This document shows positions 23,103-26,342 of a stretch of DNA of 64,000 nt, one piece after another (the first letter of the stretch is position 1; each line of letters starts with the position of its first letter). A model generated the notes under the pieces. It was not told the origin of the DNA, ran no database searches, and saw only the letters and a list, made by a program, of their open reading frames with translations. Source of the stretch: Chloroflexaceae bacterium (lineage in GTDB: Bacteria; Chloroflexota; Chloroflexia; Chloroflexales; Chloroflexaceae); assembly GCA_025057155.1 (NCBI GenBank), contig JANWYD010000007.1:1-64000 (forward strand). The letters run 5' to 3'. The translations under genes and the position numbers were made by a program.

Positions 23103-23657
23103 ATGGTCCTGGCAATCGTAGGGATGGCCGGTTCAGGCAAGAGCCAGGTGACGCGGCGGCTGGCCGAGAAGGGACTGCCGACGATCCGCTTCGGCGAGTT
23201 CATCATCCGCGAGGTGCTGGCCAGGGGCCTGCCGATCACTCCCGAGCACGAACGGGCCGTGCGCGAGGAGCTGCGCGCGACCCACGGGATGGACGTGTGC
23301 GCCCGGTTCGCCCTGCCGCAGATCCGCGCTCTGCTCGCCGAGCATCCGGCCGTGATTATTGATGGGCTGTACAGCTTCAGCGAGTACAAAACCCTGAAAC
23401 GTGAGTTCGGCGACGACCTGGTGGTCGTCGCGGTCTATACCCCGCGGGCGGAGCGCTACCGGCGGCTGGCCGCGCGCGACGAGCGGCCTCTCACCCCGGC
23501 CGAGGCCGAGGCCCGCGACGAGCGCGAGATCGAGCACATCGAGAAAGGCGGGCCAATTGCTATGGCTGATCAGCTTATCGTCAACGATGGCGACCTGGCG
23601 ACGCTGAACGCGCGGGTGGATGCGCTGTTCGACCGGTTGACGCAGGAGCGGGAATGA
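23103..23657 (+). CDS. UPF0200/dephospho-CoA-kinase-like P-loop nucleotide kinase
   Basis: 184 residues from ATG 23103. Walker A is GMAGSGKS at residues 7-14; FGEFIIREVLARGLPIT and a lid-like stretch ERYRRLAARDERPLTPAEAE with several Arg residues follow. The Walker B-like strand is AVIIDGLYSFSEYK, and the end GPIAMADQLIVNDGDL resembles dephospho-CoA and adenylate kinases. Substrate unknown. The resemblance is to the UPF0200 group, best known from archaea. Its stop overlaps the start of the deaminase-like gene (ATGA), suggesting joint work in nucleotide metabolism. Confidence 0.82.
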   Translation: MVLAIVGMAGSGKSQVTRRLAEKGLPTIRFGEFIIREVLARGLPITPEHERAVREELRATHGMDVCARFALPQIRALLAEHPAVIIDGLYSFSEYKTLKREFGDDLVVVAVYTPRAERYRRLAARDERPLTPAEAEARDEREIEHIEKGGPIAMADQLIVNDGDLATLNARVDALFDRLTQERE

Positions 23658-24034
23658 CAGACTTCGCGAGCTTGCTGGACGCCGCGCGGCGGGCCACGGC
23701 GCTGGCCCATGCGCCGCGCACGGGGCGGCAGGGCGGGGCGGCGCTGCTGGCCGAGGACGGGCGCATCTTCGCCGCAGGCAACCTGGAGGTCGCCAACTAC
23801 GCCTCCAGCGTCTGCGCGGCGAAGGCGGCGCTGATCAGCGCCTGGGCCGCGGGCGCGCGCCGCTTCACGGCGCTGGCCGTGGCCGGCGCTGGCGCCGACA
23901 TGCCCTACCCCTGCGGCGACTGCCTGCAGGCCCTCATCGAGTTCGCCCCCGCCCTGCTGATCCTCAGCGAAGCCGATCTCGATCGCCCTGTGCCCATCGC
24001 CGATCTGTTGCCTGATGCGTTCGGGTTGGGGTAA
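23654..24034 (+). CDS. Cytidine deaminase-like protein lacking the catalytic glutamate
   Basis: 126 residues, full length for a homotetrameric cytidine deaminase. It aligns with the family throughout: GAALLAEDGRIFAAGNLEVA with the substrate-binding NxE, zinc Cys in SSVCAAKAAL, zinc pair PCGDC, then LIEFAP and the C-terminal DLLPDAFGL. In working enzymes the first zinc motif reads CAE, the Glu being the proton shuttle; here it is C-A-A (GCG codon), and the YAPYSKF segment is replaced by HAPRTGR. So zinc and nucleoside binding look possible but deamination does not, unless another acid substitutes. It overlaps the kinase-like gene by four bases. Confidence 0.85.
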   Translation: MTDFASLLDAARRATALAHAPRTGRQGGAALLAEDGRIFAAGNLEVANYASSVCAAKAALISAWAAGARRFTALAVAGAGADMPYPCGDCLQALIEFAPALLILSEADLDRPVPIADLLPDAFGLG

Positions 24035-24145
24035 GCCTCCGCCGTTCGCCTTCGATTTGAATGCCCCATACCACAGCGTCGCATCCCGTTGGGCGCTATG
24101 CCTGTCCGGAGAGTGCAAAAACGGCTTAAATGCAAGCTTTAAGGG

Positions 24146-25304
24146 CTATTTCTTTAACAGAAAATCGGCCTTCAAAACTTCTGGCGTTACTTCTTGCTCT
24201 CTTGGCAGATAAATTCTGACAGGGATCTCTAATTGCGACAAATATCTGCACATTAAAGGGTCTACCTCCCGCCAAGACAGACCTCCTAAACCACAACCCA
24301 GGGCTGGCATTGCAAGCGATATAATGCCTTCTTTTTAGTTATTTTTAATCCATTTCAACCCCTCCTCAATGCCTATAATATCAGAGCGTTCCCTCCAGTG
24401 TTTTTTGTTGGAAAAAGCAAAAAATCACTTGTTTGAATTAAGATTTGGAAGACCTGAAGGACCATCTGCAAGTTGTCTGTCGAAGTATGCTTCACGTTTA
24501 TACAAGGCGGGCTTGCCCATCATTAATATTTTCTTGCGACAAATATCTTGATAGTATACATAAACGTCAGGGAATTGATACTTTGCCCTGGACGCCAGCC
24601 CTTTACCCATTACATCTACGGTGTTTACGCTAATCGTAAGTGTTTGCATTTGTGAAAAGAACATATCCCCTTCGATAAGGTAAAGACTTTGAGTGATCTT
24701 GTGCTGCTGCTTAGGCTGAAAGAACATGTATGACTCTGGCATAATAGACACTTGCAATAGATGTATTAATTCCCTTACTTTCTTAGCTATAGTGTGATTC
24801 GCCACATAAATTGTATCAATTAGTTCAGAAGGAATGATATCAGGAACAAGACACTCGGCCATTATTTTGCGCTTGGAACCGTCTTCTTCTTTCCACCATT
24901 CATTGTTGATAATATCCCACATTTGAGAAATGCTCTTCAAGCTTTGTTCAGCAGATTGAATTTCTGATGTCGTTGCATTTCCTGTTGAAATAAATATATC
25001 TGATCGAGCAAGTAAATCTTGGCGAATTCTAAGAACAACTATGTCATCATTTCTTGTCTTGTATGACACGGTAAAGCATTGGATTGCGAGGTTGAAAGTA
25101 AACATTAGCAAACTCCCAAAGACTCTTGCCATCAGGCGTTGTTCTCTTTTGACGATTGCTCACTATTTGTGCGTCATAAATTGGTGTATAGTCGATGCCT
25201 TTCGCTTCCACGAGAGCGTGTGACAGTATGCCCTCTTGAAGGATGGAACGAATATTATTGATATGCGTAATGTAATAGAGACCTTTGATAGGAGGCTTCT
25301 TCAT
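24146..25304 (-). pseudogene. darTG: Decayed darT-darG toxin-antitoxin fusion (DNA ADP-ribosyltransferase + macrodomain)
   Basis: Reads 25304 to 24146. DarT part: GLYYITHINNIRSILQEG and ANVYFQPRNPMLYRVIQDKK, then a one-base frameshift near 25050-25058 (an extra A in AAGAAATG). It resumes with NDDIVVLRI, ARSDIFISTGNATTS and KIMAECLVPD, which holds the catalytic-Glu position, and ends LLQVSIMPESYMFF. The frame runs on without a stop into a DarG macrodomain: LYLIEGDMF, TISVNTVDVMGKGLA, FPDVYVYYQDIC. In-frame TGA at 24427 (NSNK*FFAFSNKKHWRERSD, Trp expected) and TAA at 24337 (WIKNN*KEGII) interrupt it. MPALGCGLGGLSW and a stop at 24146 follow. DarT puts ADP-ribose on thymidine in DNA; DarG removes it. 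The locus is AT-rich, unlike its neighbours. Confidence 0.88.
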
Positions 25305-25739
25305 AGTACCCCTAACCTTTCAAGAGTTGAGCGGCACAGTTGTTCAACTAATAATATAAAGTCTGCGGTCTCCTTTCAGGAGACAGAGCTTGTGCAAAGT
25401 CTGTCTCATGCGGCGGATTTGGGGCCAACCTCACGAAGTTTGCACAAATCCTATTTCAGGAGGCGGCTGAACAGTTGAGTTACAGGCCCGCATCACCTGA
25501 GTGGTTTGGCAAAGACGTCCGCCTGATTTTTGCCACCCTAAGCGCATTCAATGCTATACCCTGTTAGCAAGCGGGATATGCTTTATCTAGCTCAACATTA
25601 CAGAGCGAATAACGTACTGGGAAACCTTAATTCACAGAGAAAATATCTTGAAGTCCTGTTCGAAGGTTTCTACATAACCGCCCGCGGCCCCGCCGCCACT
25701 GGCCGGCGACCGAACCGCGGGCAGGGTGACGGGGCGAAA
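25305..25739. other. Rest of AT-rich island, no gene seen
   Basis: 435 bases upstream of the darT remnant. Contents: a perfect hairpin GTCTCCTTTCAGGAGAC at 25368-25384; a 9-bp inverted pair TTGTGCAAA (about 25391) and TTTGCACAA (about 25441); and near 25600 ACTGGGAAACCTTAATTCACAGA, which resembles one end of the MITE-like element. The GC-rich base composition of the chromosome resumes at about 25680. No ORF here looks coding. Confidence 0.55.
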
Positions 25740-26015
25740 CTACTCCGCCGTCGTCGGGTCAATCACCGTTCGGACCTCGGAGATGCGATTGGCCGGAAAG
25801 CCACCCTTTTCCGCGTGTTCCCGGATCGTCGCTTCGTCGGGCGCGATGTACACGCAGTAGATCTTGTCGTCGGTGACGTAGCTGTGCAGCCACTGGATCC
25901 GCGGCCCCATGCCGTGCAGCACGTCGCACGATTTCTGTGAGATGGCCTGCAACTCCTGGGCCGAGAGCTTGCCCGCTCCAGGAAGCTCGCGCTCGATCAC
26001 GTACTTTGGCATCAT
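25740..26015 (-). CDS. DUF4242 / SCO4226-like small protein
   Basis: 91 residues, start MMPKYVIERELPGAGKLSAQ at ATG 26015 with a perfect AAGGAGGT upstream. The fold signature is a ferredoxin-like barrel: YVIERELPG, LHSYVTDDKIYCVYIAPDE and IREHAEKGGFPANRISEVR. DUF4242 relatives include a nickel-binding protein of Streptomyces; a metal role here is conjecture. It is monocistronic, next to the AT-rich island. The gap 26016-26342 upstream contains a GGGAAACCCTCGTTCCC palindrome near 26036 and otherwise nothing recognised. Confidence 0.85.
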   Translation of the reverse strand: MMPKYVIERELPGAGKLSAQELQAISQKSCDVLHGMGPRIQWLHSYVTDDKIYCVYIAPDEATIREHAEKGGFPANRISEVRTVIDPTTAE

Positions 26016-26342
26016 CGACCTCCTTGTCATGTGGCAGGGAAACCCTCGTTCCCTATCCTCTGCAACCTGCGGCCAGGAGTCGCGCGGCGCCCCTTCCCGC
26101 CCCCGGGCCAAGGTCCTGAGCAGACAATGACGTCGCTAAACCTCCCGGAAGGGGTGTTCGCCTGCCTCGAATCCGTGGGGGAAGCTCCTTGATTATAACC
26201 TATTGTCGCCGGTTGTGTTTCTCGGCGATCACTCCCGAATTACTCCCTGGTGTACAATACGAACCGTATCATTTAAGCAGCGTATCTGTTGCGCCAGCCT
26301 GCGCGCGTGCAGGGGGCGCCTGCCCCGCGGTGGAGGACGTCT

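Follow-up and report, generated by a model that had tools for sequence, protein, structure and literature searches.

Does the minus strand at 25304-24146 of this Chloroflexaceae DNA encode a DarT toxin and its DarG antitoxin on one chain, and could such a gene still work? The window (the whole 64,000-nucleotide stretch analysed) was described in an earlier note, made from the sequence alone, as carrying a fused darT-darG gene broken by one frameshift and two nonsense codons. DarT puts ADP-ribose on thymidine in single-stranded DNA and a macrodomain removes the mark (PMC8501950, PMC7003065); the two-gene DarTG protects against phage, according to the citation of LeRoux et al. 2022 in PMC9503650. 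We conclude, with a probability of about 0.93, that a single-chain DarTG copy was acquired here horizontally and has recently been inactivated. This conclusion rests on the fused architecture and its three lesions, on intact relatives and a homologue of known structure, on a same-genus genome (G400) in which the corresponding site is empty, on catalytic residues that are still encoded, and on an ordinary branch length.

A single DarT-macrodomain reading with three lesions

Three-frame translation of the minus strand from 25304 to 24146 gives a single continuous DarT-macrodomain reading that is interrupted three times:

25047-25304, minus strand: DarT N-terminal part, from the ATG at 25304 to a premature stop past the frameshift, 85 aa
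25047-25063, minus strand: frameshift zone in DarT, placed by the overlap of two DarT profile matches in different frames and by the three-frame translations
24710-25054, minus strand: DarT C-terminal part in the second frame (Pfam DarT profile 82-200, E 2.8e-21), with the catalytic-Glu motif KRKIMAECL
24146-24690, minus strand: DarG-type macrodomain, in the frame of the DarT C-terminus, with the PADLOC DarG match in two pieces
24425-24427, minus strand: in-frame TGA, where relatives have Trp (W295 of the relative L033)
24335-24337, minus strand: in-frame TAA, where relatives have Tyr (Y325, L033 numbering)

All three pieces claimed for the gene (the two parts of DarT and the macrodomain) are present, each with a Pfam or PADLOC profile match, and both families are matched far beyond chance. 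The 85-residue N-terminal ORF, whose start Met aligns with the start of an intact Candidatus Viridilinea copy, matches Pfam DarT over profile positions 1-77 (E 1.4e-23) and also the PADLOC DarT profile (E 8.5e-19). The second frame, open from 25132 to 24425 (235 aa), holds DarT positions 82-200 followed by PADLOC DarG positions 5-66 (E 9e-13); the stop-free passage from the DarT end into the macrodomain is thus seen as it had been described, in one frame and with a linker as in the intact relatives. Past 24425, where a lack of macrodomain homology was to speak against the fusion, the homology runs to the gene end: PADLOC DarG positions 103-150 are matched beyond the second stop (E 1e-14), and a TAG at 24148-24146 closes the macrodomain frame, with the alignment to intact relatives reaching the last residues.

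The three-frame translations locate all three lesions, and reading the TGA as a former Trp codon and the TAA as a former Tyr codon agrees at both sites with the aligned intact relatives. The neighbouring genes within the window are open, unlike the darTG locus. A working fused DarTG needs an uninterrupted coding sequence; with one frameshift and two in-frame stops, the window copy belongs to the family as a pseudogene only.

Intact relatives and their tree

The relatives were scanned with the longer window fragment as query and one genome per species, giving 17 loci with a matching DarT-macrodomain reading, which at nearly every locus is a single ORF without a break. All 17 are long ORFs and nearly all are complete, with about 390 residues after the start set by homology; at one (L046) the ORF runs past the contig end. 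The hosts are Candidatus Viridilinea, Anaerolineae, other Chloroflexota, one Bacteroidia MAG and the cyanobacterium Gomphosphaeria. The intact fused homologues that the earlier note had suggested seeking in other Chloroflexota were therefore found. Within the order, 10 genomes besides that of the window have a full-length copy, one with an in-frame TAG; these 10 include both Viridilinea genomes already counted among the 17 loci.

Piecewise alignment over about 380 residues gives the window copy 52-66% identity to 15 intact copies, the two Viridilinea copies being the most similar. In a maximum-likelihood tree built from 24 fused proteins it is sister to the Viridilinea pair (support 100/99). 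Its tip length is 0.36, while the intact Viridilinea sisters lie 0.23 plus 0.12-0.14 (about 0.35-0.37) from the common node. Because this branch is of ordinary length, most of the divergence was gathered under normal constraint and the decay is recent. The proposal that the fusion was once functional and has decayed recently is thus supported both by the intact fused relatives and by a root-to-tip distance equal to that of the intact sisters.

Across the intact loci, no conserved partner gene recurs except in pairs of close relatives. At two loci, L037 (4076-7514) and L041 (4064-7462), the fused gene is tightly flanked by methyltransferase-like genes, which at L041 are an MmeI_Mtase fragment upstream and an Eco57I methylase downstream; these flanks suggest an operon with a restriction-modification-like system. 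At L047 the fused gene is located after a HerA-like ATPase. Together, the three neighbourhoods are suggestive of a defence context, though not a general one.

Relation to known DarTG systems

Fused DarTG has a solved structure. PDB 7OMU aligns with the Viridilinea protein from end to end (residues 4-387, E 4e-138). When this protein was modelled with AlphaFold2 (mean pLDDT 79.9, pTM 0.71), 7OMU was also the best structural match of the model (E 1e-47, TM 0.82/0.85, 53% identity), followed by DarG macrodomains and Thermus DarT. The entry, released 2021-06-23, is titled 'Thermosipho africanus DarTG in complex with ADP-ribose', and the whole-length match means that a natural DarTG fusion was already known. 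The window gene resembles 7OMU in domain order, in its length of about 390 residues and, by way of its intact relative, in sequence from end to end; it differs in its one frameshift and two stops. The 7OMU chain reads KRKIMAACL, with Ala where 24 of 24 aligned fused copies have Glu, and is presumably an engineered inactive mutant.

The two-gene DarTG systems of the DarTG2 type (Thermus aquaticus, Mycobacterium tuberculosis) share both folds and the catalytic residues with the fused proteins, but there toxin and antitoxin are separate genes and identity to the fused family is only about 25-37%, which makes fused DarTG a distinct subfamily. Two-gene DarT/DarG pairs also occur in the phylum. The DarG model has 338 positions, of which the fusion covers only the first 157 or so. 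In DarTG1 the antitoxin of DarT1 is NADAR, whose substrate is guanine-linked ADP-ribose (PMC11543638); the DarT-fold toxin is common to DarTG1 and the window gene, but the partner in the window gene is a macrodomain. Given a single-chain DarTG in the PDB and a widespread fused subfamily, the fusion itself is no surprise: it is neither peculiar to this locus nor new, and the window copy belongs, as a dead gene, to a family already known.

Catalytic residues, decay and alternative explanations

The catalytic residues are E160 in T. aquaticus DarT, K80 in DarG and K84 in TARG1 (PMC8501950). In the fused family (L033 numbering), E152 is conserved in 24 of 24 aligned copies, the window copy included, R51 of DarT is invariant and the window copy keeps the conserved Arg, and macrodomain K302, which aligns with the Lys of FPTKKHW in 5m31, is invariant and kept as well, but downstream of the TGA. 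The catalytic residues of both halves are thus still encoded, no longer on one polypeptide. Since the N-terminal ORF stops short of the Glu, and the second frame is interrupted before it reaches the Lys, neither half can be complete. Of 79 family-invariant columns, six are changed in the window copy (five of them in the macrodomain), as compared with 0-4 in tips of similar length. These changes hint that evolution has been relaxed for some while, so that 'very recent' is approximate, and they agree with a short period of such relaxation. GC3 differs strongly between copies (0.38 vs 0.59-0.65) and synonymous sites among the fused copies are probably saturated.

Could the gene be intact in the organism, with the three lesions introduced by sequencing or assembly? 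The assembly is a draft of 189 contigs, the branch is no longer than in intact relatives and the catalytic residues are kept, all of which would fit such errors. However, errors would have to account for three separate lesions of differing kind within 1.16 kb, next to neighbouring genes that are open, and also for the six changed columns that are otherwise invariant in the family, of which five lie in the macrodomain; we consider this explanation improbable. Programmed frameshifting or stop-codon readthrough, restoring the frame to yield a functional protein, would agree with the well-conserved sequence flanking each lesion, but three recoding events would be required in one gene, none is used at these positions by any relative examined, and the run at 25047-25063 has no slippery site that we recognise in its sequence. 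A search for Rfam elements over 23400-26300 found no RNA families either, and recoding can be given hardly any weight. Equally far-fetched is a partial product with its own role, for example as a free-standing macrodomain antitoxin, even though similar macrodomain genes without a fused DarT occur on phages and plasmids, because the first macrodomain stop falls just ahead of the strand and loop with the catalytic Lys (the K302 equivalent), making a complete macrodomain impossible from either frame.

Arrival of the gene

The inactivated DarTG copy sits in an insert that can be delimited by comparison within the genus:

24036-25704, no strand assigned: AT-rich insert with the gene, about 1.67 kb between two conserved genes

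In G400 the same flanks are separated by about 38 bp that include a hairpin-like sequence, and there is no fused DarTG. GC content is 0.40 in the gene, 0.49 in the insert upstream of the gene and 0.56 downstream, as compared with 0.66 for the window. A fused-DarTG match is absent from all four same-genus genomes other than that of the window, and a Pfam DarT survey (G400 not among the genomes surveyed) gave no match in three of these; no second DarT was found in the genome of the window. Acquisition by the window's lineage is the simplest reading, with parallel loss in the others a possible alternative. No convincing repeats or target-site duplications bound the insert, and a search for other genomic copies of its ends returned weak, chance-level matches. 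The roughly 400 bp upstream of the gene (25305-25704, GC 0.49) hold no recognisable gene and have no second genomic copy.

A phage origin of the fused gene was considered and rejected, as among viral contigs a fused relative occurs on just one. On this contig, L118 (IMGVR_UViG_3300037424_003032, a predicted viral sequence), the relative is 59% identical and lies at the contig edge.

A possible order of events

The N-terminal half was formerly a DarT-type ADP-ribosyltransferase and the C-terminal half a DarG/TARG1-type macrodomain hydrolase. By analogy with the families named and with the title of the PDB entry, the intact fused relatives, and the ancestor of the window copy, would have combined modification and its removal on one chain, perhaps as a toxin-antitoxin or anti-phage module. 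The frameshift in DarT most likely came first, silencing both halves, since a stop in the macrodomain behind a DarT that still worked would have left nothing to counter the toxin. The two macrodomain stops would then be a later, neutral accumulation. The earlier suggestion that toxin and antitoxin lost function together is best taken in the sense that the DarT frameshift alone would silence both halves, the macrodomain stops probably being later neutral hits.

Gain, loss and possible control of single-chain DarTG

Other genomes hold further remnants. L095 (G086:C7:123268-124425; listed with L087), in the same taxonomic family, is a fused copy with an in-frame TAG in DarT, and G267, a congener of G086, has an intact fused copy at the same chromosomal place with the same gene neighbourhood. 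L116 (G230:C1:2217403-2217711) is a weak relic of a DarT N-terminus with two stops and 28-35% identity along about 100 residues; it probably represents an older dead copy from the fused DarTG family. The broken copy in G086 and the relic in G230 argue that fused DarTG was gained and lost more than once. A stand-alone macrodomain gene, L099 (G070:C1:2612-3115), shares 44-50% identity with the macrodomain of the fused proteins and is closer to it than ordinary DarG is, though without the extra loop of the fusion; it is possibly an orphan antitoxin.

A tentative reading, to which we give somewhat less than even odds, is that the fused proteins form a widespread single-gene class of their own, whose toxin and antidote are inseparable by differential decay of the antitoxin. 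Covalent joining of toxin and antidote would require that control sit inside one polypeptide, for example as direct inhibition or as NAD- or DNA-triggered switching, and the class would be repeatedly gained and lost by horizontal transfer and decay.

On its own, the window copy is one dead gene. It nevertheless offers a case of how a fused toxin-antitoxin may be lost safely, with a frameshift in the upstream toxin half silencing both halves together, and the intact single-chain DarTG proteins of Chloroflexota could be used, besides the Thermosipho structure, to ask how a tethered toxin gets released.
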